Shown: piece after piece, positions 8,226 through 38,005 of the stretch | Position numbering within the stretch: position 1 is the stretch's first letter | Layout: each line of letters opens with the position of its first letter | Origin: a virus | Length of the DNA: 39,469 nucleotides | Strand: one strand, 5' to 3' | Virus record (IMG/VR): IMGVR_UViG_3300000563_000007 | Span: 1 to 39,469 of that record | Notes under the pieces: generated by a model | Seen by the model: the letters and a program-made list of their open reading frames with translations, nothing else | Told to the model about the DNA's origin: nothing | Database searches by the model: none | Program-made: the position numbers and the translations under genes

Positions 8226-8561
8226 CTAAATATCACGGGGTTCACCCAGTGGGATTTTATTAATAGATTGAATTATCAAGTCCGGATATTTTAGAGTAAT
8301 AAGGTCCTTTATAATATCCGTAGTTATATTGGTAAAGAAAATTTCCTGATTATTTTTGCATATTACCCGGTATAATATCCCTTCACAACCAAGTTTACCC
8401 AACTTATTAATAGATATCTCGATTTGTTCTCTAAGATTCAATATCTTTTTCTGATATGCTCTGCCTCTTATCTTTCCGGGTTTATTATAAGATAATTCCA
8501 AATCATTAATCTTATTAGCCAGAAACTTGATTCTCTGTAAAATCTGATTTACATCTTTCAT
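8226..8561 (-). CDS. Hypothetical protein (111 aa)
   Basis: Basic, helical N-terminal half (MKDVNQILQRIKFLANKIND) and an Ile-rich alpha/beta C-terminal half. Its start lies 47 bases inside the end of 8515-9186 in another frame; there is no better ATG later, so either this is a true overlap or translation starts at a non-ATG codon. No family recognised. Confidence 0.55.
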   Translation of the reverse strand: MKDVNQILQRIKFLANKINDLELSYNKPGKIRGRAYQKKILNLREQIEISINKLGKLGCEGILYRVICKNNQEIFFTNITTDIIKDLITLKYPDLIIQSINKIPLGEPRDI

Positions 8562-9186
8562 AATTCTTAATTGTTAATGGGTAATCCTTAATCCGCATAT
8601 TATCTACCCAGTTTTGAGTTTCTGCTTGCATAGTCTTTAAAACTTTAAAATTTGGCATTTCTCTCTGTCTTGCTAGTACATCTTTTAAGTATTTATTGCA
8701 ATACTTATATTCCATCATATGCGCCTCTCTAGCACATGCCTTAACATTAGGGATTAGCGGATATAATTTCGGATAATGCCAGTTTATCCTTTTCTTCCAA
8801 AATTTATAATCCTCTACGAGTTGTTGCCTCGTAATTTGTTCATTGTTGATCACATCGAGTAATGTATTTTTAAAGAAAACAATCATTTCTTCATATCCCG
8901 CCACTTTAAGGGTGATAATAGCTATACCTTGGTAATTAAAAGTAGTACCTACAAACATATGTAATCCCAATGTTTTACCTAAATGACGGGCAAGTTTCAC
9001 ATGTCTCTTACTTATATCACTATTCAGATGTACAATCACTGAATACATAATAAACCCTCTTTCCTTTATATCGGGCAATTGGTTTATCAACTTACGGTAA
9101 CCGGATTTAAACTTGGTATAAAAGCCATCCCAATAATATGGTTCTGATTCTTTTTTAAATAATTGCTTAGAGAGAGTCATAATCAA
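8515..9186 (-). CDS. Hypothetical protein (223 aa)
   Basis: An alpha/beta protein beginning MIMTLSKQLFKKESEPYYWD (Met3 is an alternative start). The middle has strands such as FIMYSVIVHLN and GIAIITLKVAGYEEMIVFF, and the C-terminal half is basic and helical, with Cys and His residues near 150-165 (CAREAHMMEYKYC). No known family is evident. It overlaps the preceding zinc-binding gene by 20 bases. Confidence 0.6.
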   Translation of the reverse strand: MIMTLSKQLFKKESEPYYWDGFYTKFKSGYRKLINQLPDIKERGFIMYSVIVHLNSDISKRHVKLARHLGKTLGLHMFVGTTFNYQGIAIITLKVAGYEEMIVFFKNTLLDVINNEQITRQQLVEDYKFWKKRINWHYPKLYPLIPNVKACAREAHMMEYKYCNKYLKDVLARQREMPNFKVLKTMQAETQNWVDNMRIKDYPLTIKNYERCKSDFTENQVSG

Positions 9187-15609: not shown

Positions 15610-16567
15610 CGAGTATTTGTTTTAGTGCCTTAATTTTCTTTTTATCATTTATCCCCTTTTCTTCACAATACCTCTTAGCCAACTTTTTTCTAGATATATT
15701 ATTAGTAAACCTTCTAGGGATTTCGGATTCATCGGAATCCTCCATTTTATTTATAGGTACCCAATAATGGTAATCGTTAATCGTATCTTTAGTCGGGTCA
15801 TAAAATTTGAATTCGGGTGTAGTGAGTTTCTTAAACTTAGTGGTCATATCCTCGTATATTTCCCAATATCCAAATTTACCCCCCATATCACTTTTCTTTT
15901 GCTGATTAGGTGAACCCACCATAATTATACTGGGTCTTATTCTTTGAGGTTTATGAATATGGCCACATAATACTAAATCGAATCCTTTAAATAGCTTGTA
16001 AAGATCTTTATCTAAATTCTGTACAGAATCAATTCTTCTACCGTCTGTTTCCCTGGCTCCATGTAGATCGGTGTGTATTAAAAGGATTTTCTTTTTAAAT
16101 TTCTTTAACTTTCCATTTTTCCTAATTTTATTAAGATAATCCTCAAATCCTATATTATATGTAAGATAAGGTATACCTGTAATACAGACATCGGGATGTG
16201 ATGTAAGTGTGATTAGCTCAAAATCTATACAATTAATCCCCTTTGTCATCGTGGCTAATGACTTAAACAATGATGGAGATTGATTATCGATTGTATTAGT
16301 TTCACTCATATCATGATTGCCTGATATACCCCAGACATTTAAACCCATTTTCCCTAAATGAGTTGAATAATCGAATAACTTATTGGAAATATGTTGATCT
16401 TCATGAAACCAATCTCCAGCAAATAACATAGGTAACCTCTTTTTTTTGAGTATCTCTAAAATACCGAGAGTTACCTTTATCCTTTTATCATTTTCATTAA
16501 ACTGATTAAAATCATGAAAATGTAAATCGCTAAAAACTAGAGCTATGGGCTTGGTTTTATTTGGCAT
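15602..16567 (-). CDS. SbcD/Mre11-like nuclease (T4 gp47 type)
   Basis: Calcineurin-like metallophosphoesterase. Motifs in order: FSDLHFHD at 12-19, GDWFH at 51-55, GNHD at 83-86, HTDLHG at about 165-170 and GHIHKP at 202-207, which supply the two-metal site. The length of 321 aa fits phage gp47. It forms a complex with the adjacent SbcC-like protein for end processing. Its start overlaps the stop of the P-loop kinase gene by 11 bases. Confidence 0.93.
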   Translation of the reverse strand: MPNKTKPIALVFSDLHFHDFNQFNENDKRIKVTLGILEILKKKRLPMLFAGDWFHEDQHISNKLFDYSTHLGKMGLNVWGISGNHDMSETNTIDNQSPSLFKSLATMTKGINCIDFELITLTSHPDVCITGIPYLTYNIGFEDYLNKIRKNGKLKKFKKKILLIHTDLHGARETDGRRIDSVQNLDKDLYKLFKGFDLVLCGHIHKPQRIRPSIIMVGSPNQQKKSDMGGKFGYWEIYEDMTTKFKKLTTPEFKFYDPTKDTINDYHYWVPINKMEDSDESEIPRRFTNNISRKKLAKRYCEEKGINDKKKIKALKQILDD

Positions 16568-17138
16568 TTATATAATCCTCCACAATTTGTTTACGTTTTT
16601 CAAAATCTGTTATCCCTGCTAATGATAAGTAATTACCCATAGTGAAATGTTGTAATACATCTTCATATTTCTTAGATATCCCCTTTTGATATTCCGTATC
16701 CACTACTCTTACCTTATCATCCTCAATCTCCCAATGATCTATCCAAGGAATAAATATTATACAGTCAAATAACCGATTTATCAATTCAGAAACAAATTCC
16801 ATATGTTCATATACCTTATCACTAATATCCTTACATTGAGTTAGAGTATACACCATCGAATCAATATGCCCCCTATCGGTAACAAAACCTTTATACTTAT
16901 ATAAATTGAATTTAAAAGCTCTTTCACGCAATAATTCCCATTGGATTATTAAGGCTTTTTCTGGCTCTTTTTCAGAAAATTCAATGAATTGCTGGTGAGT
17001 TTTAATTTTATAACAAGGACAAATCTGTTTTAATACAGAAACACTAACAAAAGTTAACTCCCAATGGTTAGCCACCCATTTAGCTAAAGTAGTTTTTCCC
17101 ATTCCAGAGGGTCCAGTGATTAATACATTTACACTCAT
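16557..17138 (-). CDS. P-loop kinase, deoxynucleotide-kinase-like (193 aa)
   Basis: Walker A GPSGMGKT at 9-16, then a lid-like helical region; TDRGHIDSMVYT at about residues 87-98 resembles the DR-(S/x)-x-D-xxY motif of thymidylate/deoxynucleoside kinases, and FDCIIFIPW (about residue 127-135) is the strand before the adenine loop. This points to an AAA_28-type NTPase or a phage deoxynucleoside (mono)phosphate kinase. It is ATGA-coupled to the flap exonuclease gene. If the TS-fold proteins make a modified dCMP, this would be a natural candidate for the kinase step, but substrate is not shown. Confidence 0.65.
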   Translation of the reverse strand: MSVNVLITGPSGMGKTTLAKWVANHWELTFVSVSVLKQICPCYKIKTHQQFIEFSEKEPEKALIIQWELLRERAFKFNLYKYKGFVTDRGHIDSMVYTLTQCKDISDKVYEHMEFVSELINRLFDCIIFIPWIDHWEIEDDKVRVVDTEYQKGISKKYEDVLQHFTMGNYLSLAGITDFEKRKQIVEDYINAK

Positions 17139-18022: not shown

Positions 18023-19133
18023 ATCTAGCCCCTCTAACTGGGTATAGGTTTTTTTCTTGGTTTTTAATATGATTTTTCAGTTTAGATATTGTGTGAATTC
18101 CAGATTTACTTATCAGAGTTTTCCGTATTCCTTTATCCTCATATAACAGATTAACCAATTCCTCTTCAGATTTAGCTATATCCTTACCATCCATTTTATA
18201 AGGTGAACTTCCCTTGCCTCGGGTCAATGCCCCCGTTTTCAAAAGTAAATCGGGTAATCCCAAATACCTATCAATACCCACAGGTTTATAATATTCCGGA
18301 TTAAAATAGATTTTAGTTTTAAAAGTGGGACGAGGTGGTGCTACCTTATTTTTCTTTAATCGGATAGAGGTTTCAATTCCCACCCTTTCCTCTTTCTTTT
18401 TAATTTTTTCTTTTACCTGCTTCCCACCGTATACACCTATCCTTTGAGCAGCATAAAATTTCATAGCATGTCCGCCGGGGGTTGTATCCGGATCTTCAAA
18501 TTTAGAGGCTCCCACTTTGCTTCTAATCTGATTTATAAATATAGATATGATCCCCAATTCATATAACAGTTTATTCCTTATTCGAAGCATTTTGTAGATA
18601 GCCTTTGCCCTATTACCCATTTCCGCTTTAGCATCTGATTGTCTGGAATTAATATTAACCTCACAATCTAAGGCAGCCATACTATCCTGAATAAATAGAA
18701 TAGGTTCGTTATTGGTTAACTTAGATCGGTAATATAAGGCCATATCTAATAACCAATCTGAAATAGGTTCAACAGCAATATCATTAAATAACTCAATCTT
18801 ATTCATATCGAGTCCATTTTGTTCTGCCCAAGCAGTTGTAAAACTTTGTTCGGCATCATTCCATAAAATAATACCACCAGCCCTTTGAGCGGCATAACCA
18901 AAATCTTGAGCGATAAGGGTTTTTCCAGAAGACTCCATTCCGAATATCTCAACACATCTTCCATAAGGTATTCCTCCGCCCAGTACGTAATTTAACATAA
19001 GACTACGTGAAGGAAGCCATAGTTGTTGATCAGTAGGAACACTTATTTCACTGGCTAAACCAGAATGATATTGGCTTCTAATTTTACCTATAGAACCAAC
19101 TTTAGGTTTATTGCTTTTATTTTTCTTTGCCAT
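18000..19133 (-). CDS. RecA/UvsX family recombinase (377 aa)
   Basis: Strand-exchange ATPase. Walker A GMESSGKT at 65-72; IILWNDAEQSFTTAWAEQNG corresponds to the RecA strand with catalytic Glu near 97; Walker B EPILFIQDSMAAL at 143-155; L1/L2 region INQIRSKVGAS then DTTPGGHAMKFYAAQR at 200-231, more like bacterial RecA (INQLR-K, TT-GG-ALKFY) than T4 UvsX. The N-terminal Lys-rich start (MAKKNKSNKPK) is followed by the MAW-like helix. It is placed beside SSB, the UvsY-like candidate and exonuclease, as expected for recombination-dependent replication. Confidence 0.93.
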   Translation of the reverse strand: MAKKNKSNKPKVGSIGKIRSQYHSGLASEISVPTDQQLWLPSRSLMLNYVLGGGIPYGRCVEIFGMESSGKTLIAQDFGYAAQRAGGIILWNDAEQSFTTAWAEQNGLDMNKIELFNDIAVEPISDWLLDMALYYRSKLTNNEPILFIQDSMAALDCEVNINSRQSDAKAEMGNRAKAIYKMLRIRNKLLYELGIISIFINQIRSKVGASKFEDPDTTPGGHAMKFYAAQRIGVYGGKQVKEKIKKKEERVGIETSIRLKKNKVAPPRPTFKTKIYFNPEYYKPVGIDRYLGLPDLLLKTGALTRGKGSSPYKMDGKDIAKSEEELVNLLYEDKGIRKTLISKSGIHTISKLKNHIKNQEKNLYPVRGARYERQSEE

Positions 19134-19146
19134 ATAATTAGGGATT

Positions 19147-19187
19147 AAAAAAGGGAGGGACTAGCATATAGGCCAGCCCATCCCTTT
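19147..19187 (-). terminator. Intrinsic terminator after the SSB gene
   Basis: AAAGGGA (19181-19187 on the minus strand) pairs with TCCCTTT (19150-19156), extended inward by GC-rich imperfect pairing, then six T. It separates the SSB gene from recA, which would permit higher SSB output with partial read-through into the recombination genes. Confidence 0.75.
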
Positions 19188-19204
19188 AAAGTCCAACCTC
19201 ACTG

Positions 19205-19951
19205 CTAAATGTCACCGGACTTTTTCTTTTTCTTCTTTTTGGTTTTCTTGGATTTCTTTTTTGGTTTTTCATCCTCATCATCAGGGCCATGGAGGAATGT
19301 ATTAAGAGCTTCTGCTGTTTCCTCGTAAGAAGGAATAACATCTCTTATCATTTCGGGAAGATCAACCTCTTTATTATACCCTTTTGCAATAGGTGTATTT
19401 TTACAAGGTTGAACATCATATTCGGTATCATATTGACCAGTACCCGAACGAATCAATTTAATATCATAACCATTATCATCGATTGCAGTCATATCCCCCC
19501 ATTCATCGGTATCCAAGAAAAGGTCGATAATTTTATCATACTGGGCATTGGTTAATAGAACAAGTTTACCCGAATTATCCTTATCTACCTTTTTACCTTT
19601 AAGATCAGAATATACCAAAACCGGAGCCAGATATCTTTTACGAGGGGAAAAACCTTTTGCCAATTCCTTATCATCAGGGTCATCTGACTCCCTTAATTCC
19701 TGATATTTTTCCATAATAGCACAAGGTTCCCCAAGAGAATCGGGGGATATTACTCCCTTAACTTCGGGTCCTAAATAGAACTGTGTTACCTCATAAACAA
19801 ATTCCTCATCATCCCCTGTCGGTAACAATCTAACCCTCAAGGTACCTTCCTTTTGGAAAATAATTTTTTGATTACGTGAACCCCTTTCTCGAAGTTCCTT
19901 TTGCTTTTTAGCAAGCCTCTCTCTTAAAGAAGATTTTTTCTTTTTAGCCAT
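19205..19951 (-). CDS. Single-stranded DNA-binding protein, gp32-like (248 aa)
   Basis: The order fits T4 gp32-type SSBs: basic N-terminus (MAKKKKSSLRERLAKKQKEL), an OB-fold opening with LRVRLLPTGDDEEFVYEV, a zinc-region-like insert, KRYLAPVLVYSDLKGKKV, then SGKLVLLTNAQYDKIIDLFL and GDMTAIDDNGYDIKLIRSG near residues 150-175. It coats ssDNA during replication. Oddly, the C-terminus has a short acidic patch (GPDDEDEK) followed by a Lys-rich run and SGDI, whereas gp32-type proteins normally end acidic. Strong terminator downstream; UvsY-like gene upstream. Confidence 0.8.
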   Translation of the reverse strand: MAKKKKSSLRERLAKKQKELRERGSRNQKIIFQKEGTLRVRLLPTGDDEEFVYEVTQFYLGPEVKGVISPDSLGEPCAIMEKYQELRESDDPDDKELAKGFSPRKRYLAPVLVYSDLKGKKVDKDNSGKLVLLTNAQYDKIIDLFLDTDEWGDMTAIDDNGYDIKLIRSGTGQYDTEYDVQPCKNTPIAKGYNKEVDLPEMIRDVIPSYEETAEALNTFLHGPDDEDEKPKKKSKKTKKKKKKKSGDI

Positions 19952-20417: not shown

Positions 20418-22580
20418 TTAATTATAAATAGTATCCGAATTAACCAGGGATGAACAATCTTTATCCCACTGATAATTTGATAGATCCCCCCAATTTGAAC
20501 CCAATTCAAAATCCACCGCCATTGCAATTCCCTTCAATTTAAAGCCAAACCATTTTTCTGTTTCAGGATCTTGACATATTTTATTAATAATTGGTATAAC
20601 TGTATGAACATCTTCGGGATATAATTCATAAATAAGTGAGTCATGAACCGTAGCTAATTGCTTTAACCCCATTGGTAATTCCCCTTTTTTAACAGCTTCC
20701 CATATTAATATAGAAGCAAACAATGTATAATCCGAAGCCGTGCCCTGTACAATTGCATTAACTGATTGTCTTTGTGCTTCTGCCTTTTTACCCCAATTTG
20801 GAGAATGTATTTCAGGTAACCTTCTTTTACGTCCAAAGGGAGAAGTTACAAACCCATCAGTTTTAGCTTTCCTATGTTGGCTTTTAATAAACTTCTTAAT
20901 ACGAGGGAAATCTCGGAAGAATTCATCAAGGAATTTTTGAGCTTCTTCTTGAGATACTGCATAATCATCAGTTGAGAGGGATTCAGATAAATGTTTTGCA
21001 CCCTGCCCATAAACAATTCCAAAATTAATCGTTTTTGCTTGCTTCCTTCGCTTACTCCATTCTATATTTTCCGGGTGATTTTCATCCTTATATATTTTAT
21101 AAATTTTATCATAATCTTCACGATATTTTTTAACTGCCGAGGCTAAGTGAATATCCCTACCTTCTTTAAACCATTTAAGCATTGTCTTTTCCTTAGCCAT
21201 TGCCGCCAATACCCTTAACTCTGCCTGAGAATAGTCTACTTGCATTAATATCTTGTTGGGAGAAGGAACGAATAATCTTTTAATATAGGGATTAGTGGTA
21301 ATACGGGGTATTTGTTGAGCATTAGGATTACGGCTAGATAATCTACCTGACACCGTCCCATGGATAAGATATGAGGGATGTAATTTCCCATTATACATTT
21401 TCTCAATAAAGGAATCTATAAAGTTATTACGGATATGCAATAAGCCACGATATTCCAATAATAAATCAATAAATCCTGTATCATCCCTTTTATTTAATTT
21501 ATTCAATACCTCTTCATCTGTAGAAGGATTATCAGTCTCATTATTGTACTTATCGGTAGTATACTTAATGATATCAAATTCAAATCCGTAAGGAGATAAG
21601 AATAATAGTTTCTTTAATTGATCGGGGCTACCAAAATTAAAGGGTGCGAATATGGCCTGATCTTTTTTGGATAAGTTTTGTTCGAAAATGATGTTATTAA
21701 TCTTCTGCTCTCTATTTTGTATTTTACGTAAATTACCCAGATAATCCTCATCTGTAAGGGATTTAATTTCCCGTTTTAATTCTTTAATATAATTCTTTTT
21801 GGCTTCTTTAATCCTCAGCTTTTCATATTTCCTAATTTGTTTATGATCCTGTAAAGCCAATAAACAGTTATCTATTTTTTCTTTATATAAATCTCTAACC
21901 TCATATAGTTTTTCCACATTAATTGGAAACCCGTGGTAACTACTTTCCGCTAATACCCGAGCACCCATCATTAATAGATTACGAAATATTTTATAAAATC
22001 CCTTTTTAATAAGTCTTTCCTCAAACATAAGGAATAACCGGAATTCTAAGTCTGCATCTAATCCCGCATATTTACATAGGATATCTAAAGGAACATTAGC
22101 CCACCCGTATTTCTTAACCACATTTTCTATTTCATGTTCATATTGTGAAAATTCTGGGAGATACTTGGTAACCATAGATTTAAGGTCATTAGGACGAGTT
22201 TCATCTAAAAGGTATTTAGCTAACATTGCATCAAATAACCTACCCTTCGGATATATCTGGTATTTAAAACACCATTTTAATTCGAATTGTAAATTCCAAG
22301 CAATTTTAACTATCTTTTCATTTTCTAATACCTCTTTCCCAAACTTCCTTAATACCTTTTTAAATTTCTTAGAAAATGCGCTTTCCTTATGTTTTAAAGG
22401 GATAACCCAAGACCCTCCAGGCTGAAAGCTAACGGCTAATGCAGTGGGATATTCAGATTCTCGGTAATATTCTGTACTTGTAGTTTCAAAGTCAAAACAA
22501 CAATATCCCGTACGTTTACAGTGAGATATTAACTTATTTAGATCATCAGTATTCTCAACTATATATAAATCACTTTTCAT
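20418..22580 (-). CDS. Family A DNA polymerase with 3'-5' exonuclease
   Basis: Residues 27-33 (CCFDFET) give exonuclease motif I (Asp30, Glu32); GLDADLEFRLF supplies a later exonuclease motif. Polymerase motif A is VDYSQAELR near residue 450, motif B RRKQAKTINFGIVYGQG near 515-530 and motif C TVHDSLIYE near 645. The 720-aa length and lack of a 5' nuclease domain match T7-type replicative polymerases. It is the main replicative polymerase. The start overlaps the dCMP deaminase end by 11 bases; the stop lies 10 bases before the UvsY-like gene. Confidence 0.95.
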   Translation of the reverse strand: MKSDLYIVENTDDLNKLISHCKRTGYCCFDFETTSTEYYRESEYPTALAVSFQPGGSWVIPLKHKESAFSKKFKKVLRKFGKEVLENEKIVKIAWNLQFELKWCFKYQIYPKGRLFDAMLAKYLLDETRPNDLKSMVTKYLPEFSQYEHEIENVVKKYGWANVPLDILCKYAGLDADLEFRLFLMFEERLIKKGFYKIFRNLLMMGARVLAESSYHGFPINVEKLYEVRDLYKEKIDNCLLALQDHKQIRKYEKLRIKEAKKNYIKELKREIKSLTDEDYLGNLRKIQNREQKINNIIFEQNLSKKDQAIFAPFNFGSPDQLKKLLFLSPYGFEFDIIKYTTDKYNNETDNPSTDEEVLNKLNKRDDTGFIDLLLEYRGLLHIRNNFIDSFIEKMYNGKLHPSYLIHGTVSGRLSSRNPNAQQIPRITTNPYIKRLFVPSPNKILMQVDYSQAELRVLAAMAKEKTMLKWFKEGRDIHLASAVKKYREDYDKIYKIYKDENHPENIEWSKRRKQAKTINFGIVYGQGAKHLSESLSTDDYAVSQEEAQKFLDEFFRDFPRIKKFIKSQHRKAKTDGFVTSPFGRKRRLPEIHSPNWGKKAEAQRQSVNAIVQGTASDYTLFASILIWEAVKKGELPMGLKQLATVHDSLIYELYPEDVHTVIPIINKICQDPETEKWFGFKLKGIAMAVDFELGSNWGDLSNYQWDKDCSSLVNSDTIYN
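20421..20437 (-). promoter_or_regulatory. Candidate motif CGGATACTATTTA upstream of UvsY-like gene
   Basis: On the minus strand CGGATACTATTTATAAT overlaps the last codons of the polymerase gene and lies 14 bases before the next start (20407). Near-copies occur before 26026 and 30585. A TTG occurs about 21 bases upstream of TACTATTT. Promoter or translation leader; unproven. Confidence 0.35.
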
Positions 22581-23007
22581 ATCTGTGTATTAAAACCTGG
22601 CTTTTAAACAATAAATCCCTTCCATCGTGATTTGTATATTCTTTATCGTAGTAAACTTTTTTAATACCCGCTTGTATAATAAGTTGGGCACACTTTATAC
22701 AAGGTTCATGAGTGCAATATAAAATAGCTCCGTTTAAAGAAACTCCAGACTTTGCAGCAAAAGCAATTAAATTAGCTTCCGCATGGATTGCATTTGGACA
22801 TGAAGTAGCTTCACTTGAACAACCATTCTCAACAGTACAGTGTTCTTGCCCAGAAGGAGATCCATTATAACCTGTGGATATAATTCTGTTATCTAATATT
22901 GCCACTGCTCCTACTTGACCTCTTAAACAAGTAGATCTTTTTGCAAATAGCCAAGCTACACCCATAAAGACTTCATCTCGAGTGAACCTTTTATGTTTTA
23001 AATCCAT
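22570..23007 (-). CDS. dCMP deaminase
   Basis: Zinc-dependent cytidine deaminase fold. The zinc site is HAE at 75-77 (His75, catalytic Glu77) and PCIKC at 102-106 (Cys103, Cys106); an additional Cys/His group (Cys57, Cys63, Cys70 region) fits the second zinc site of the T4-type enzymes. STGYNGSPSGQEHC at 44-57 is the substrate loop. It turns dCMP into dUMP, supplying dTMP synthesis and shifting the C/T balance. Length 145 aa is close to family size. It overlaps both neighbours by about 10 bases. Confidence 0.92.
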   Translation of the reverse strand: MDLKHKRFTRDEVFMGVAWLFAKRSTCLRGQVGAVAILDNRIISTGYNGSPSGQEHCTVENGCSSEATSCPNAIHAEANLIAFAAKSGVSLNGAILYCTHEPCIKCAQLIIQAGIKKVYYDKEYTNHDGRDLLFKSQVLIHRYEK

Positions 23008-23483
23008 ATCGGTTTATCCCTTTTAGTATATGTTAATAAATGGGCTTTTTCTTGTAAATAATAATTACGATAAGCAATTACTGCATCATCAGGATGTTGA
23101 CAATGGTAAGGCATTGCCTGAACAAAGGGTGTCAATGATCCTTTGGAGAATTTTAATAAAGGATCGTGAGCAAATATATTAGCCGCCCTTTTTATAATTT
23201 CACTGCTTTTATGTTTACCACCATAACGATATGTAAATTCTTCAGATAAATAATAACCTAAAAGTAATAACCACCAAAAATTATTTTCCGATTCGCCTGC
23301 CCATAAAGTACAAGGGTGATTTTTATGAGTAGGTCTATATAATTCCCTTTTAAAATTAGGCATTAATCTCCATATAACCGTACTCAATATTTGAGCTGTT
23401 TCCAATATCATCTTAACTACATGCTTATCACAATGATATTGTGCCGCTTTCATAGGATCCTTATCTAATACGAAAATGTTCAT
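22998..23483 (-). CDS. Conserved 'NIFVLDxDP..DKHVVKM' phage protein (161 aa)
   Basis: Starts MNIFVLDKDPMKAAQYHCDK and continues HVVKMILETAQILS, then PTHKNHPCTLWAGESENNFW, FTYRYGGKHKS, QAMPYHCQHPDDAVIAYRNY and KRDKPIWI. From memory this set of motifs defines a widely distributed, uncharacterised phage family. I use the ATG at 23481-23483; an upstream in-frame ATG (23591) would prepend a false hydrophobic segment translated across the terminator and promoter. Conserved Asp, His, Lys and Trp residues suggest an enzyme. Its place among nucleotide enzymes hints at a metabolic role. Confidence 0.7.
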   Translation of the reverse strand: MNIFVLDKDPMKAAQYHCDKHVVKMILETAQILSTVIWRLMPNFKRELYRPTHKNHPCTLWAGESENNFWWLLLLGYYLSEEFTYRYGGKHKSSEIIKRAANIFAHDPLLKFSKGSLTPFVQAMPYHCQHPDDAVIAYRNYYLQEKAHLLTYTKRDKPIWI

Positions 23484-23515
23484 AGTCAGGTATTTATATA
23501 TAATATATAATAGTG

Positions 23516-23546
23516 CAAATATAAAAAAAGGGATTGCTAGAAGCAA
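23516..23546 (-). promoter_or_regulatory. Bacteroidetes-type promoter embedded in a terminator
   Basis: Minus-strand TTG at 23544-23546, 20-base spacer, TATATTTG at 23516-23523. The TTG lies in the stem of the preceding terminator and the T-run is the spacer. It drives the 23483 gene, dCMP deaminase and polymerase. Confidence 0.7.
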
Positions 23547-23554
23547 CCCCTTTT
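23523..23554 (-). terminator. Intrinsic terminator after the TS-like gene
   Basis: On the minus strand AAAAGGGGTTGC pairs with GCAATCCCTTTT around TTCTA, one G-U wobble, then a T-run. The wobble pairs only in minus-strand RNA, consistent with this orientation. It lies about 35 bases past the stop of 23588-24322. Confidence 0.75.
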
Positions 23555-23587
23555 TAACCAAAGTTTCACCCCTGAACTCTTCGGTTA

Positions 23588-24322
23588 TCACATTGATAAT
23601 TTTGGTACCTCGGGTTCAAAACAATGTAAACTTCCTATCCACATTTTTAAATCTCCCATCTGAAGATAAGGCAGTTCATCCATTAATTCAAGTCTCAATG
23701 TTTGAGCCAATCGGATTGTCATATAAATATCGTTATGAAAATGCCTGAAAATATCACATGACCTGATAAAGTAGGTACAGTGCAAATGCATTTTTATTAT
23801 ATGAAAGTAATAACCAAGTGTGCAGGGTAACCTTCTAATGCCGGGACTTTGATCTTCTGGGTGCCATATAGAAAAATAGTGCTGCCTTCCATGTGGATCC
23901 TGTTTAAACTTATCAATAAAATTATCCCAATTCCCCGCTGGATATCTTATCGATAAATTTGAAGGAGGCCAAAACCTTTCCATATATGTATGAGAAAATA
24001 ATCCCTTATTATCCTCATTTCTAAATAGGTTATCATTATCGATATCTCTATAATATGGCCAATTTTTATATTGTTTACCCGGATTTAAAGGTTTACCACA
24101 TATTCTTTCCTGAAAATGATCTTCTGCCCAAGGTAAATCGGCATTGGTTTCAATAGTCAATTCCCTAATACCCAAAGGCATTTCCATATTAAGGAATACA
24201 TCGAAAGTCTCCCATAATTTAGCCGGTGGCTCTATACCCTGCCATTTTTTGGACGGTCTTACAAGCCCTTTTTGTTTTAAAAGGGATTTTGCTGATTTAA
24301 TACTTTCTGATATTAATACCAT
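23588..24322 (-). CDS. Thymidylate-synthase-fold protein, dCMP-hydroxymethylase-like
   Basis: Matches the TS fold from about residue 108: FSHTYMERFWP (TS: Y-x-x-x-WR), DPHGRQHYFSIWHPED at 142-157 (TS: DPDSRR--SAWN), RRLPCTLGYYFH with catalytic Cys167, FIRSCDIFRHFHND at 185-198 (TS: QRS-D--LG-PFN) and GDLKMWIGSLHCFEPE at 223-238 (TS: GD-HIY-NH-EP). Cys-to-Arg spacing (20) equals that of ThyA. Asp198 falls on ThyA Asn177, the residue selecting dUMP; Asp there is typical of dCMP hydroxymethylase. A divergent thymidylate synthase remains possible, and Asn197 is adjacent. It is followed by a terminator and preceded by dUTPase four bases away. Confidence 0.75.
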   Translation of the reverse strand: MVLISESIKSAKSLLKQKGLVRPSKKWQGIEPPAKLWETFDVFLNMEMPLGIRELTIETNADLPWAEDHFQERICGKPLNPGKQYKNWPYYRDIDNDNLFRNEDNKGLFSHTYMERFWPPSNLSIRYPAGNWDNFIDKFKQDPHGRQHYFSIWHPEDQSPGIRRLPCTLGYYFHIIKMHLHCTYFIRSCDIFRHFHNDIYMTIRLAQTLRLELMDELPYLQMGDLKMWIGSLHCFEPEVPKLSM

Positions 24323-24325
24323 AAT

Positions 24326-24841
24326 TTATTTTTTATTGGTTGAACCAAACCCTCCGGAACCTCTTGAAGAAACTTCATCATATAATGTTTCTAATGAATC
24401 CACTTCTTCCAACGGATCTTGATTAATCTTAAATCGGACGAATTGAATGATCTTATCTCCGGACATAATATGTACAGGAGTTGTAGAGGTATTAACCAGG
24501 CTAATATGGACCTCACCTTGATAATGTTCATCTACTACCTGAGCCATCACATCCAACCCTAACTTAGTAGCAACTCCACTTTTATTCATAGCGATAAGGG
24601 CTATGCCGGGTTTTAATTTTACATGTATCCCTGAGGGTATAAGAATCCTATTATGTGGGGGAATTATTATTTTTATACCTTCTACCTTATCCCCACTTAG
24701 GAATATTCTATGATGGTCATTAATATTCCAAAAATCATTAAAAAACAAGTAATCCAACTCTGGAACAAAGAAATCTATTCCGGCATCCCCAGCATGAGCA
24801 ACATCAGGATCTTTAACTTTTCTAACTTTAGTAAATTTCAT
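24326..24841 (-). CDS. dut: dUTPase (deoxyuridine triphosphate nucleotidohydrolase)
   Basis: All five trimeric-dUTPase motifs are visible: AGDAGID at 17-23, NKSG at 86-89 (usually PRSG), GLDVMAQVVDEHYQGEV at 95-111, GDKIIQFV at 128-135 and the glycine-rich tail RGSGGFGST at 160-168. An insert of about 30 residues after motif 1 lengthens the usual form. It hydrolyses dUTP to dUMP and pyrophosphate, keeping uracil out of DNA and supplying dUMP. It sits between the two TS-fold genes. Confidence 0.95.
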   Translation of the reverse strand: MKFTKVRKVKDPDVAHAGDAGIDFFVPELDYLFFNDFWNINDHHRIFLSGDKVEGIKIIIPPHNRILIPSGIHVKLKPGIALIAMNKSGVATKLGLDVMAQVVDEHYQGEVHISLVNTSTTPVHIMSGDKIIQFVRFKINQDPLEEVDSLETLYDEVSSRGSGGFGSTNKK

Positions 24842-24848
24842 AATATTT

Positions 24849-25652
24849 TTATTTAGTTATTAATAAGTTTTTAGCCAATAGAGGGGGTGTTTTGGATATA
24901 CATTCACCATTTATTTTCTGTAATTGTTTGATAGACCTTAAGTGAACTTTATAGTTAATCGTGGCGGGATCTACCGTTTTAAAGTGATTTAGGATTTGTT
25001 TAGTTTTTGTTTGAAAAGGTTTGAGTCCGCCGTTTTTCTTTTCTAATTTCCTGAAAACCTTGTCCATAGGAAAATAATTATCCATCATCACCAGCCCTTC
25101 TGAAGTAGTATAAGCATTAGGAAGAAATACCTCAACTGCAATATGCCTATCATTACCATAAACATATTCCGCCATTCTTTGTATTAATAGGAAATCAAAT
25201 ATCAGACGTTTGGTAATCTCAGAGGACCTCAGAGTAAATTGCACTATGGGATCCAATTGTTTGGGCCTTCTTATAAAAATCAGAGAAATCAAACAACCAT
25301 GTCCTGTAACATGTGCATTATCAAATATAAAGGAAACGGTATATTCATTTTGGTTCTTAGCTTCTCTTGATAATACTTCAGATTTAACCAGATCGAGATA
25401 ATTTAGGTCTACGTAATTAGCAATTAACTTAGACCATTTTTGAATTTTATATCCGAACATTAATCCAAAATTAAATTCTGGGCTTACATAAGCCTTACGT
25501 ATTTTAAGAAATAGGTTATGACTGGCTATTTTTGAACCATATCTAACTCCGTTTCTGTTTACTATCTCTTCTTCCTTTACTAAAAAATATCGGTTTAATT
25601 TTGCCCAAGCCTCTTCTGTTGTTGCAAACTCAAATGTCTTTACTAGTTTCAT
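24849..25652 (-). CDS. Second, divergent thymidylate-synthase-fold protein
   Basis: Not obvious at first sight, but residues 116-185 line up with the TS core: TGHGCLISLIFIRRP with candidate catalytic Cys120 (TS: LPPCH), then LRSSEITKRLIFDFLLIQRM at 141-160 (TS: QRS-D--LG-PFN-ASYALL) and VEVFLPNAYTTSE (TS: HIY-NH). The Cys-to-Arg distance is 22 versus 20 in ThyA; Arg142, Ser143 and Glu145 replace Arg166, Ser167 and Asp169, and Asp153 falls exactly where ThyA has Asn177. The N-terminal 100 residues are not recognisable. It may be an inactive partner, a cytosine-specific enzyme or a nucleotide-binding protein. Confidence 0.5.
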   Translation of the reverse strand: MKLVKTFEFATTEEAWAKLNRYFLVKEEEIVNRNGVRYGSKIASHNLFLKIRKAYVSPEFNFGLMFGYKIQKWSKLIANYVDLNYLDLVKSEVLSREAKNQNEYTVSFIFDNAHVTGHGCLISLIFIRRPKQLDPIVQFTLRSSEITKRLIFDFLLIQRMAEYVYGNDRHIAVEVFLPNAYTTSEGLVMMDNYFPMDKVFRKLEKKNGGLKPFQTKTKQILNHFKTVDPATINYKVHLRSIKQLQKINGECISKTPPLLAKNLLITK

Positions 25653-26026
25653 AGATTTTTAATTACAGTTTTAGCCTTCACCTTTGAAATATCAAACTTC
25701 TTTATTGCTAATCTAATAACTCTGGGCTTGGAGTATTTAACTAATTTTTTGGACATGAATTGTCGGATCTTTTCCAAATCTGGTGTATCATTCAAATCTT
25801 TAAACTCAGTTTTCTTTTCTTCAAGTAACCTTGTCTTCTTTAGGTTTTCGGCTGTTACTATTTGACAGAATTCAAAATCCCCGCAAATCTGACACTCCTT
25901 TGCTTTGGGGTCATTGTATTTTCCAAAACATGGATCCTCTTCTCCGCCAAATTTGGTAATATCAAAAGGTTCTACTATTGGACCTTGTTGCTCTGCAATA
26001 ATCGATCTTGATCTTCTCTTTGCCAT
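25649..26026 (-). CDS. Conserved four-cysteine zinc-type phage protein (125 aa)
   Basis: Residues 31-56 (EEDPCFGKYNDPKAKECQIC followed by GDFEFC) provide Cys at four positions in the pattern C-x11-C-x2-C-x5-C, a probable zinc knuckle. From memory DPCFGK-YD...ECK-CGD-E-C is a conserved phage signature. The N-terminus is basic (MAKRRSRS), and the C-terminal 40 residues form a Lys-rich helical domain. It is ATGA-coupled to 24849-25652. A DNA-binding accessory role is plausible; function unknown. Confidence 0.65.
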   Translation of the reverse strand: MAKRRSRSIIAEQQGPIVEPFDITKFGGEEDPCFGKYNDPKAKECQICGDFEFCQIVTAENLKKTRLLEEKKTEFKDLNDTPDLEKIRQFMSKKLVKYSKPRVIRLAIKKFDISKVKAKTVIKNL

Positions 26027-26051: not shown

Positions 26052-27467
26052 TTAGTACAATCTAATAACCTTAAAACCTTCTTTACGATAAAAAGAGATT
26101 CTATGTTTTGAATGACGGCTTAGATATTTACCATCATCGAAAAAATCTTCGATAATGGTTTTCTTTTTACTTTCATGTTTCCTTTCCCCTCTACCCATAA
26201 TCTGAGATACATTTTCATGTGAGTCCCCCCCTGCCGCATTTATTATTACCTTAATTAAAGGTAAGTTCTGACCTCTTTTAACAATCATTGAGGAAATAAG
26301 TATATCTATCTTACCTAAGCGAAAATCATTAAATATATCTTTCCTATCTTTAATTTTATGGTGGGCATATCTAACCGAGAAATCTGCTGAAAATTCTTCA
26401 TTCACTTTATGGAATAACCTTTCTACATGTTCATGATATTGACATACCACCAATATAGGTATCCTACCTCTTGATATATTGAAATGCAATCTTTCTATAA
26501 CCTTATTTTCTCTGTAAATATTATTAGAGATTATATTAGAATATTCCTGACGATAATCACCGGGCACTGCTTCTCCTTTACCACCTGGTAACATTTTAAT
26601 TACCAAGTTAGATGAATGTCCTTTTTTGATTAGTTCTTTTTTAGATATTTTGAAAAGCTCATCTCCAAAGAATGAACGGATATTATTATTTTTTAATTGG
26701 TGTTTTTTAAGGCTACTCAGATATACAGTACCTGACATACCCACTCTTACCGAGGTATGATACATCTTAGTGATAATATTACGATATGTTTTATTATCCG
26801 CTAAATCACACTCATCAATAATACAGACATCATATTCCAAAAGTTTATTTCTATATCGCCTAATATCTCGGGATAATGTCTGAACCATTGCAATAGTAAA
26901 ATCTCCCCACTTCTGGTATTTCTGTCCTTTTATAAATCCAATATCGGTATCGGGCAGTAATTCTGGAAATTCTCTTAACCCTTGGTTAAAAAGGTCAGTG
27001 GAATTAAGTAATACTATAGTCTTTATACCCTTATAACTTTTATGTATTGCACTAGCAATAAGAGTTTTACCTGCATTAGTAGCCGCATTAATTACTCCGA
27101 TAGGAAAGGGTGTACCATCTATAGTGTTATGAACAATTTTGTTCGTGGCTAGTGACTGGTAAGGTCTTAACTTAAATTCCCCCAGTTTTTTTGGTATCCC
27201 TTTAAATTCAGGTAAAATCCTTTGGTCATTTATTTTGTACTTTATATTAAATTCATTACACTGCCTTATGAGCTTCGGTATTAAACCTACCCTTATAGTT
27301 CCATTTTCACTTATATCATTAACAAAACCATCCCAACCTCTAGGCATATGTTGCCTTAAAAACCAAGCATTGGGATGTCGGAATCTAAGTTCATTCCTTA
27401 ACTTATTAAGTTCCTTTAAATCACCTTTTAACTTACAATAAGTATTTGTCAGATTAATCGTTATCAT
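26052..27467 (-). CDS. UvsW-like SF2 DNA helicase
   Basis: Superfamily 2 helicase. LRPYQSLATNK (Q-motif-like) at 100-110, Walker A AATNAGKT at 128-135, Walker B box DECD at 218-221, motif III SGT in VRVGMSGTVY and motif VI QIMGRGERK near the C-terminal end. Length (471 aa) and an N-terminal domain preceding the motor (about 90 residues) resemble T4 UvsW (503 aa), which unwinds branched DNA and R-loops, helping the switch to recombination-dependent replication. It overlaps the hypothetical gene at 27454-28281 by 14 bases. Confidence 0.88.
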   Translation of the reverse strand: MITINLTNTYCKLKGDLKELNKLRNELRFRHPNAWFLRQHMPRGWDGFVNDISENGTIRVGLIPKLIRQCNEFNIKYKINDQRILPEFKGIPKKLGEFKLRPYQSLATNKIVHNTIDGTPFPIGVINAATNAGKTLIASAIHKSYKGIKTIVLLNSTDLFNQGLREFPELLPDTDIGFIKGQKYQKWGDFTIAMVQTLSRDIRRYRNKLLEYDVCIIDECDLADNKTYRNIITKMYHTSVRVGMSGTVYLSSLKKHQLKNNNIRSFFGDELFKISKKELIKKGHSSNLVIKMLPGGKGEAVPGDYRQEYSNIISNNIYRENKVIERLHFNISRGRIPILVVCQYHEHVERLFHKVNEEFSADFSVRYAHHKIKDRKDIFNDFRLGKIDILISSMIVKRGQNLPLIKVIINAAGGDSHENVSQIMGRGERKHESKKKTIIEDFFDDGKYLSRHSKHRISFYRKEGFKVIRLY

Positions 27468-36103: not shown

Positions 36104-38005
36104 TTATATCTCTGACCAGTTAGCAGTAAGGGTACACGCCCCTTTAAATTTTATAGTTTGTTGCTGTAAATTTGGATTAAAATTGTCTGGTGTTTCACCA
36201 GAAGTAACTGTCCAATTAACAAATTCATATTGAGGCTCTTGCCCCACTTCAACATTTTCCCATGTATTAATATTAACATTAGCATCTATATCGTGAGTTC
36301 CCGCCCCAGATACATTTAATACCCCTACACTAGGATTAAGAAGTAAAATTAAATCTGCTTGAGGTAAAGGAGCTGGTTGCGCCCATTGATTTCTACTTAA
36401 AGCATTAGCCTCATCATTATTATAAGCACAATAAGCTCCCTCTTCAGTATTCTCCCAATCTAAATTATCTTCTATATAAGGAATATCTTCTCCCCCACGA
36501 TACTTTGTTGTTGCCAAATTTTGAATCATCCATACCAACTTCCCTATTTTTGTTGTATAATAAGTTCTCCCTTGATATACTAAATTACCAGCATTAACTC
36601 CATCATCCCATAGTTTTTCTGTTTCTGTTGCATCACGAACACACTTTACACTCATTCCGAAATGTTTATTAAGAACTGATGACATCCACACCCCTCCATC
36701 ATCATAGAACATATATCTGGCTACTCCTGCATGATTATATGTAGGAGACTGGGTAGATGTCCACCAATATCCGGCATACCCTAAGCTAAAGAAGAGAGCA
36801 GTACGATATCCTCCAGGAATAGCAGAGAAATGAAAATTGTCTGTTCCTTCATGTGTGCTATATTCTTCCCATCTTGGATGTTCATTTGTATCACAATACC
36901 CTCCTTCTGGTGAATTTATTTGTCTACAAGACTTCAATGCGTTCCCTACATTAATTAAAGTATAATTATGTTCCTCTATTAAACGCTCTATCAAATCATC
37001 CCAATCTTGTGCGGTTGCAACTCTCCACCCATCTGGAGCAAGAGCATAATCTTCACTATCTCCTACATAATCATCATTAAGACCATATGCACAACAAGCC
37101 CCACTTGTATCATTTTCCCAATCTAAATTATCTTCTATATAAGGAATATCTTCTCCATTACGATACTTTGTTGTAACTAAATTTTGCTTCATCCATACTT
37201 GCTCTCCTATTTTATAACATAAGTATACAACATTATAATAGAAAACAGCCTCCACATAATCCCCATCATCTAATTCTTGTTCTTCTGTTGTTGCATCACG
37301 AACACACTTTACACTTAATCCCATAGACTTTGATGTGGGTGAACCATATAAAAAATTATCATTATATATCATACTAAATCCTATAGGAGAGTCTCCAGGA
37401 CTTAATCCTGTACTCCACCAATGACCATGAGTTCCTAATTCTTGAAAGGTTCCACTACTGCTACGACTCCCTCCAGGTAAAGCAGAAAAATTCCAATCGT
37501 CTGTTCCATAATAAGTCTGGTGTTCATTCCATCTTGGATGTTCATTTGTATCACAATACCCTCCTTCTGGTGAATTTACTTGCCGACATGATTTGAGTGT
37601 GCCAGCTACCTCTTCCTCATTTATCTCGTGTTCTTCTACTAAATAGTCTTTTAAAGCCCACCAATCATCATTACTTGGAATTCTCCATCCTTCTGGGGCA
37701 AGACTATATCCCGAATCATTTTCATCAATATGTTTATTTATAGCATACCAATTATATAACTGTCCGTATACAAAATGTTTTTGATTCTCATTTATAGCAT
37801 ACCAATTATACAAGTACCCGTACTTTATGAAGGGAGCACCATAATTACGAAAATTTCGTAAACTATTTTTATCCCCTTTATACAGAGGATCAAAGAATTC
37901 ATCAACAGAGCTATTAAAACATTCTGATAAAGAATCCTCCAATGGTTTTATTACACTAACCACATCCGATAATAAGAACTGAAAATTGTTTGGTACTTTA
38001 ACCAT
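36104..38005 (-). CDS. FISUMP-domain tail protein (633 aa), receptor-binding candidate
   Basis: Repeated Fib_succ_major (FISUMP) modules of about 220 residues. Each carries GYSLAPEGWRIPSNDDWWAL-type, SPEGGYCDTNEHPRW, FSALPGGSR / FSAIPGGYR, GYWWTSTQSP-type and VKCVRDAT blocks; the linker pieces IGEQVWMKQNLVTTKYRNGE and IGKLVWMIQNLATTKYRGGE open modules two and three. Module one lacks its opening and module three is cut short. The C-terminal about 90 residues (YEFVNWTVTSGETPD to the end TLTANW) look like a Listeria-Bacteroides B-repeat. FISUMP folds are C-type-lectin-like adhesins, so this is a likely host-binding protein. Start overlaps the previous stop by one base. Confidence 0.8.
   Translation of the reverse strand: MVKVPNNFQFLLSDVVSVIKPLEDSLSECFNSSVDEFFDPLYKGDKNSLRNFRNYGAPFIKYGYLYNWYAINENQKHFVYGQLYNWYAINKHIDENDSGYSLAPEGWRIPSNDDWWALKDYLVEEHEINEEEVAGTLKSCRQVNSPEGGYCDTNEHPRWNEHQTYYGTDDWNFSALPGGSRSSSGTFQELGTHGHWWSTGLSPGDSPIGFSMIYNDNFLYGSPTSKSMGLSVKCVRDATTEEQELDDGDYVEAVFYYNVVYLCYKIGEQVWMKQNLVTTKYRNGEDIPYIEDNLDWENDTSGACCAYGLNDDYVGDSEDYALAPDGWRVATAQDWDDLIERLIEEHNYTLINVGNALKSCRQINSPEGGYCDTNEHPRWEEYSTHEGTDNFHFSAIPGGYRTALFFSLGYAGYWWTSTQSPTYNHAGVARYMFYDDGGVWMSSVLNKHFGMSVKCVRDATETEKLWDDGVNAGNLVYQGRTYYTTKIGKLVWMIQNLATTKYRGGEDIPYIEDNLDWENTEEGAYCAYNNDEANALSRNQWAQPAPLPQADLILLLNPSVGVLNVSGAGTHDIDANVNINTWENVEVGQEPQYEFVNWTVTSGETPDNFNPNLQQQTIKFKGACTLTANWSEI
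36453..36493. repeat. Internal direct repeat of FISUMP gene (copy at 37116-37156)
   Basis: 41 identical bases recur 663 bases away (37116-37156), coding the IPYIEDNLDWEN segment. The spacing equals 221 codons, one module. Confidence 0.85.
36869..36918. repeat. Internal direct repeat of FISUMP gene (copy at 37529-37578)
   Basis: 50 identical bases recur 660 bases away (37529-37578), coding NSPEGGYCDTNEHPRW in both modules. Identity at the DNA level points to recent duplication or gene conversion. Confidence 0.85.
37737..37810. repeat. 54-bp tandem duplication at the FISUMP N-terminus
   Basis: The sequence coding YNWYAIN occurs twice 54 bases (18 codons) apart, in LYNWYAINENQKHFVYGQLY and the following copy. 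The N-terminal remains of a module appear to have been duplicated. Confidence 0.75.

Follow-up and report, generated by a model that had tools for sequence, protein, structure and literature searches.

Phage enzymes of the thymidylate synthase (TS) superfamily are the closest described precedents for the genes considered here, and in these enzymes the residue at one active-site position, Asn177 in Escherichia coli ThyA, governs which pyrimidine is accepted. Aspartate at this position leads to cytosine being chosen over uracil (PMC6400193, PMC5175136), and the Asn-to-Asp substitution alone converts thymidylate synthase into a deoxycytidine monophosphate (dCMP) methylase (Liu and Santi 1992, cited in PMC8670742). 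In the MetaGPA study (eLife 2021, PMC8670742), contigs with modified cytosine are marked by TS genes encoding Asp177 and by the PRA-PH and dCMP deaminase genes that accompany them, and sites 177 and 147 are the top two positions separating the TS genes of such contigs from others. Asp177-type TS enzymes of phages are already known. The present analysis concerns two genes in the window, by which we mean the whole 39,469-base record IMGVR_UViG_3300000563_000007, from a virus of bacteria: TS-A (23588-24322, minus strand), whose 244-aa product is a TS-superfamily protein of probable dCMP hydroxymethylase type, and p2 (24849-25652, minus strand), whose 267-aa product is a deeply divergent protein with a predicted TS fold. 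Measured against the libraries and papers searched, three elements are new: the recognition of p2 as a branch of the TS superfamily that joins PHROGs 34294 and 13667, its tight pairing with an Asp-type TS, and the modified cytosine thus predicted for many cultured phages.

By its sequence, TS-A is a member of the TS superfamily, scoring 34.6 bits against PF00303 (E 1.5e-8; curated cut-off 24.3) and matching phrog_160 'thymidylate synthase' at 1.3e-23. A profile built from 99 relatives retrieved TS-fold structures from the PDB at 4e-17 and weaker, headed by AfhB of Escherichia phage HY126 (9iqu 3.7e-17, 9iqc 3.8e-17) and followed by S. aureus TS, the CMP hydroxymethylase MilA and an L. casei N229D mutant. 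The structure model of TS-A (predicted local distance difference test, pLDDT, 92.5) gave Foldseek matches to TS, MilA and 9iqc. The initial annotation had placed Cys167, Arg187, Asp190 and Asp198 on ThyA Cys146, Arg166, Asp169 and Asn177 with identical spacing, and the alignment is indeed gapless between these residues. Asp198, and not the preceding Asn197, occupies the 177 site, as in T4 gp42, where the same 'ND' pair supplies Asp179 as the site residue. Among 102 TS-A relatives, the equivalents of the catalytic Cys (C167), the phosphate Arg (R187), the trans Arg126 (R146) and His207 (H233) are each invariant, and Asp190 is kept in 101. The 177 site is likewise Asp in 101 of the 102, the sole Asn belonging to the full-length ThyA of contig L125, and TS-A does not have the Asn177 that identifies thymidylate synthase proper. 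The protein ends 11 residues past His233 and so lacks the folate-closing C-terminal tail of ThyA, which closes the active site for hydride transfer and is also missing from T4 dCMP hydroxymethylase (PMC6400193); Asp at the 177 site together with the missing tail is the combination expected of a gp42-type enzyme. The residues that choose deoxyribose over ribose, equivalent to Ser167 and Arg126 (PMC5175136), are of the deoxyribose type in TS-A (S188 in 96/102 relatives, R146 in 102/102). Judged by motif, the likely counterpart of the Glu58/Glu60 that activates methylene-tetrahydrofolate is Glu67 (Glu in 70 and Asp in 23 of 102), in a helix whose alignment is uncertain.

The idea that an Asn-to-Asp change separates T4 gp42 from thymidylate synthase, on which the initial annotation had relied, holds across phage enzymes of known specificity and ThyA. 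The 177 site is Asp in T4 gp42 (a dCMP hydroxymethylase) and AfhB (a dCMP hydroxylase), and Asn in SPO1 gp29 (a deoxyuridine monophosphate, dUMP, hydroxymethylase), in M6 gp58, also a dUMP hydroxymethylase, and in ThyA. At site 147, TS-A shares Thr with T4 gp42 and AfhB, whereas ThyA has His; at site 169 it shares Asp with ThyA, T4 gp42 and the SPO1 and M6 enzymes, whereas the one AfhB sequence compared has Asn, which is too few to establish a rule for its family. A separate case is the 'thyA' of Pseudomonas phage PaMx28 (L152, 1084-1980), which combines Asp at 177 with Pro at 147, keeps a longer C-terminus and has dCMP deaminase and dihydrofolate reductase (DHFR) genes nearby; its product may be a dCMP methylase, giving 5-methylcytosine.

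The second protein had been described as much more divergent and possibly undescribed, and the searches bear this out. Relatives of p2 gathered from viral contigs, phage records and the neighbourhoods of TS-A genes gave a 95-member alignment in which many sequences share just 12-20% identity with the window p2. No Pfam family matches p2, PF00303 being found in 0/89 members, and neither the window p2 alone nor the p2 profile produced a usable sequence match in the PDB, where ferritin and citrate synthase (E 0.1-1) appeared as noise. The window p2 matches phrog_34294 (function unknown); over the family, PHROG 34294 and PHROG 13667, both of function unknown, match the near and far halves (40 and 39 of 89 members), and one member matches the NCBIfam thymidylate synthase model TIGR03283 at 3.2e-4. 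Structure prediction gave a confident AlphaFold model (pLDDT 96.3; predicted template modelling score, pTM, 0.93) with a TS fold. All 12 of its Foldseek matches in the PDB at E <= 0.001 are AfhB, T4 dCMP hydroxymethylase or MilA, with AfhB the best (E 5.8e-6, probability 1.00) and thymidylate synthases ranking below; among viral models (BFVD), three uncharacterised phage proteins are followed by phage TS/dCMP hydroxymethylases, again at probability 1.00. Profile comparison points the same way: the two halves of the family, near (46 members) and far (43), align to TS-A at E 0.0025 and 0.0015 respectively, compared with 0.03-0.9 for six control families, and in the far-half and whole-family alignments Cys, Arg and Asp fall in register with those of TS-A, Cys120/Arg142/Asp153 pairing by hhalign with Cys167/Arg187/Asp198. 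On the basis of the model, p2 is a branch of the TS superfamily with a predicted TS fold.

Only four residues, Tyr80, Cys120, Arg142 and Asp153, are invariant in p2 (95/95), and the last three correspond to ThyA Cys146, Arg166 and Asn177. The initial annotation had matched four residues of p2 to ThyA with one two-residue shift. The shift is as described, with Cys and Arg 22 residues apart instead of 20 and Arg and Asp 11 apart as in ThyA; Glu145 at the 169 site, however, is not fixed, being Glu or Asp in the near group and Tyr in 37/43 of the far group, so the match is one of three residues and not four. Four random invariant columns would yield such spacing (20 ± 2, then 11) in ~0.15% of draws, amino-acid identity not yet being required. 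The His207/Tyr209 pair that holds the 3'-OH is Asp191/Tyr193 in the window p2, with His in 36/43 far and 19/52 near members; an invariant Arg is missing at the 126/127 site, and p2 has no further invariant acidic residue to stand for Glu58, the methylene-tetrahydrofolate activator of TS and T4 gp42. By this pattern p2 retains a nucleophilic Cys, a phosphate Arg and a cytosine-type Asp while having lost the folate apparatus, and since the folate-activating residues are not conserved we do not give it the name 'dCMP hydroxymethylase'.

The two genes are tightly linked. With p2 as the query, TS-A lies within 3 kb downstream in 40 of 44 distinct loci, and in a 41st (L076) it follows just beyond the stretch compared; with TS-A as the query, p2 lies just upstream in 44 of 58 distinct loci. 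In all 90 p2/TS-A pairs the two genes share a strand, often with an overlap of 1-4 bases. In the window a trimeric-type dUTPase (24326-24841, minus strand; PF00692 2.5e-15, phrog_135 1.8e-29) lies between the two minus-strand open reading frames, as the initial annotation had it, with gaps of a few bases on either side. Across 57 p2 loci, polA homologues lie downstream in 56, a 125-aa protein upstream in 50 and a helicase-like protein upstream in 46; the cluster regularly includes a dimeric dUTPase/MazG-like NTPase and a DNA polymerase, and in part of the loci a dCMP deaminase. The conserved 125-aa neighbour (25649-26026 in the window) is Cys-rich and is perhaps a pathway component. Cultured carriers, in which p2 was confirmed by the family hidden Markov model, include Gordonia phage Troje (gp51-gp50), Mycobacterium phage Muddy (gp47-gp46) and Serratia phage Serbin (gp51-gp50); dozens of Gordonia phages carry p2, and a Troje-type query retrieved 85 phage records, with p2 named hypothetical among the annotated rows listed. 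Some contigs, all of them possibly fragments, have only one partner: three carry p2 alone (L127, 61 kb, and the short L087 and L090) and 11 carry TS-A alone, reaching 46 kb and counting the closest relatives of the window TS-A among them. The window TS-A forms a clade with proteins encoded on contigs that have no p2 nearby (SH-aLRT, an approximate likelihood ratio test, 99), and the window p2 groups with the helicase/polymerase locus type (modest support), so TS-A has probably been exchanged in the window phage. Partner exchange and the single-gene contigs together suggest that the two enzymes share a pathway without forming an obligate complex.

Some carriers have another source of deoxythymidine monophosphate (dTMP). 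ThyX is also present in 9 of 50 p2 contigs and full-length ThyA in 2, so that 11 of the 50 have a separate dTMP synthase. In the gut phage DP SC_2_H4_2017 (L069, 13094-14727) ThyX lies between two p2 paralogues with TS-A after them, and in L125 (2667-6352) the order is p2, full-length ThyA (Asn177), p2 and TS-A, which places both kinds of TS and two p2 paralogues in one cluster. Because ThyX or ThyA coexists with them in these contigs, the p2/TS-A pair is unlikely to make dTMP.

We favour, at a probability of roughly 0.64, a model in which the paired genes belong to a pathway by which the phage produces a deoxycytidine nucleotide modified at position 5 and destined for its DNA, with TS-A as a dCMP hydroxymethylase-type enzyme and p2 as a second cytosine-nucleotide enzyme. 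The initial annotation had suggested more guardedly that one or both proteins may act on dCMP and that the phage DNA may carry a modified cytosine. This is supported by the Asp fixed in both families, the dCMP and CMP enzymes that head the fold matches of the p2 model, the separate dTMP synthases and the link between Asp177 and modified cytosine reported in the independent MetaGPA study (PMC8670742); from the conserved residues, the DNA of the window virus probably contains altered cytosine. TS-A would bind dCMP, with Asp198 reading the cytosine, Arg187 and Arg146 of the partner subunit holding the phosphate and Cys167 attacking C6, and it would most likely use methylene-tetrahydrofolate to place a one-carbon unit on C5, water completing the reaction to give 5-hydroxymethyl-dCMP by analogy with T4 gp42. 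The dUTPase, the dCMP deaminase (22570-23007, minus strand; PF00383 7.7e-26, phrog_174 4e-54) and a thymidylate-kinase-like P-loop protein that is a candidate dNMP kinase (16557-17138, minus strand; phrog_2107 1.5e-19), the latter two already recognised in the initial annotation, would keep the pools in balance and phosphorylate the product.

The part played by p2 can be outlined more loosely. It may bind a cytosine nucleotide of the same pathway through Cys120, Arg142 and Asp153, and we infer a covalent Cys-C6 step; as the folate-activating residues are not kept, p2 itself probably carries out no one-carbon transfer, and would act in another way on dCMP or on the product of TS-A. DNA cytosine methyltransferases can swap the hydroxyl of 5-hydroxymethylcytosine (5hmC) through a covalent Cys-C6 step, and by analogy a 5hmC-type hydroxyl exchange is one way in which p2 could elaborate the TS-A product. 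A bolder and tentative extension, to which we give low odds, is that p2 founds a folate-free class of TS-superfamily enzymes that replaces or decorates the C5 group of 5-hydroxymethyl (or hydroxy) dCMP from TS-A, or of the base in DNA, via a Cys-C6 covalent intermediate, so that many cultured actinophages, and phages from the environment, would carry a hypermodified cytosine not yet described.

Several observations weigh against the proposed pathway. The fit of TS-A to AfhB is no worse than its fit to T4 gp42 (hhalign 5.8e-15 vs 4.6e-11; 9iqc TMt 0.75), the p2 model superposes only moderately on solved TS folds (TMq 0.41-0.47), as is expected of a deep branch, and the whole-family match of p2 to the TS-A profile has a probability of 61%. 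Among the scanned window proteins no enzyme for glycosylating or carbamoylating DNA turned up, and no carbamoyltransferase, the downstream modifier seen in MetaGPA, across 51 records (the window and 50 kin); the window is also without the dimeric dUTPase/MazG-type NTPase that most relatives have. DHFR is absent from all 50 p2 contigs, which is expected if the reaction leaves folate unoxidised and is more in keeping with a hydroxymethylase than with a methylase, but in fragments this is weak evidence, and a host enzyme could serve.

Of the competing explanations, the one that survives best takes TS-A to be a flavin-dependent dCMP 5-hydroxylase like AfhB, yielding 5-hydroxydeoxycytidine and not 5-hydroxymethyldeoxycytidine. 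This alternative, dependent on flavin adenine dinucleotide, stays in consideration because AfhB is the closest solved relative of TS-A: it is the top PDB profile match of the family, its hhalign alignment to TS-A is longer as well as stronger than that of T4 gp42, and among the matches listed the target-normalised TM-score is highest for 9iqc. We nevertheless judge it unlikely, since the Asp held at the ThyA-169 site by 101 of 102 TS-A relatives is Asn in AfhB, and the D-arabinose-5-phosphate isomerase gene near AfhB in HY126 is matched by none of the window proteins scanned. Similarly doubtful is a heteromer in which p2 is the second subunit of TS-A, regulatory or completing its active site, and catalyses nothing itself. 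In the dimers of ThyA-type enzymes each subunit lends phosphate-binding arginines to the other, so the missing invariant Arg at the 126/127 site of p2 would suit such an arrangement, as would the adjacency of two TS-fold genes on one strand, often with a 4-base overlap. The invariant Cys, Arg and Asp of p2 are, in contrast, what a catalyst would be expected to keep, and an obligate p2/TS-A heterodimer in particular is weakened by the probable exchange of partners and by the contigs, possibly all fragments, that have only one of the two.

That TS-A is a dCMP methylase making 5-methyl-dCMP, with p2 as an accessory, seems to us less likely again. The sufficiency of the single Asn-to-Asp change for such a conversion, as cited in PMC8670742, speaks for it; TS-A, however, is without the tail that seals ThyA for hydride transfer (PMC6400193), and the p2 contigs are without DHFR, which the Asp177-bearing Pamexvirus PaMx28 does have nearby. 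Very little probability remains for TS-A and p2 as alternative thymidylate synthases that supply dTMP and tolerate the Asp: TS-A homologues in cultured phages are annotated as thymidylate synthase, and the adjoining dUTPase and dCMP deaminase would provide dUMP, but the known dUMP enzymes carry Asn at 177, the only Asn-177 relative found is the full-length ThyA that stands alongside TS-A in L125, and ThyX or ThyA accompanies the pair in 11 of 50 contigs. The notion that p2 lacks a TS fold and matches the motif by chance, in line with its lack of significant Pfam or PDB sequence matches, is the least credible of all in view of the confident model, the Foldseek probability of 1.00 in two libraries, the invariant residues falling on the TS nucleotide site and the TIGR03283 match of one member.

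In transcription order on the minus strand, the cluster consists of a 471-aa helicase-like protein (26052-27467; its homologue in phage DP SC_6 is annotated 'putative helicase'), the small 125-aa protein (no Pfam match over its cut-off), p2, the dUTPase, TS-A, a pyrimidine-dimer DNA glycosylase-like protein (22998-23591; PF03013 1.4e-5, phrog_624 5.2e-62), the dCMP deaminase and a family A DNA polymerase (20418-22580, an open reading frame matching the polA homologues at p2 loci), with the thymidylate-kinase-like gene further downstream. The glycosylase-like gene, situated between TS-A and the dCMP deaminase, is rare in relatives (2 loci by phmmer). The rest of the window encodes a partly T4-like replication kit comprising a UvsX-like recombinase, a gp32-like single-stranded DNA-binding protein, SbcC- and SbcD-like proteins, a primase and a DnaB-like helicase. 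The host may belong to Bacteroidota or Fibrobacterota, judging by the Fib_succ_major domain (PF09603 2.4e-50) of a 633-aa protein at 36104-38005. Other p2 loci show further features: in L070, an IspD-like cytidylyltransferase (PF01128 1.4e-26) and a LicD protein (PF04991 8e-39) lie between TS-A and the polymerase (18125-19745) and are possible decoration enzymes; the 1421-aa family A DNA polymerase of L069 (17353-21618) has long insertions resembling inteins or homing endonucleases by eye, and L070 (19866-23144) has a similar insertion; and in L001, a p2 phage without TS-A, a 186-aa protein (8450-9010) that looks CYTH-type triphosphatase-like by eye is encoded beside a kinase gene.

These results predict modified cytosine in many isolated phages, among them the Gordonia phages, Mycobacterium phage Muddy and Serratia phage Serbin, in which the gene is just called 'thymidylate synthase', and they supply a predicted fold, active site and pathway for a large protein family that was formerly two unlinked PHROGs. 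Because cytosine modification affects restriction and Cas cutting, it bears on how such phages survive in their hosts and how they are studied there. A literature search, with most subscription journals outside it, found no description of p2 and no base composition for Muddy or the Gordonia phages.

Set beside known systems, the p2/TS-A locus resembles each in part. The Asp177 TS genes of MetaGPA share with it the Asp and the co-occurring dCMP deaminase and PRA-PH (MazG-like) genes; in the consulted sections of that paper (PMC8670742) a second TS-fold companion is not mentioned, and the carbamoyltransferase common there is absent from the window and its 50 kin. PHROG 34294 and PHROG 13667 cover the near and far p2 halves, and were neither joined nor given a function in the libraries searched. 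MilA shares the TS fold and the Asp at the base-selecting site, but selects ribose through Ala176 and Lys133, where TS-A carries Ser and Arg, as deoxyribose enzymes do. AfhB (9iqu, 9iqc) is the best solved relative of TS-A by profile and of p2 by fold, and has Asp177 and a short C-terminus; it differs in the Asn at 169 and the D-arabinose-5-phosphate isomerase gene nearby, and the gene that follows it in HY126 is ruled out as a p2 for want of a profile match. T4 gp42 is like TS-A in its Asp at 177 after an Asn, its Thr at 147, its equivalents of Cys, Arg, Asp169 and His207 and its missing C-terminal tail, while identity in the profile alignment is ~20%, no glucosyltransferase was found at the window, and no p2 homologue is annotated beside gp42 in the T4 stretch compared. 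T4 also carries a thymidylate synthase besides gp42, an arrangement mirrored by the p2 contigs that have a separate ThyX or ThyA.

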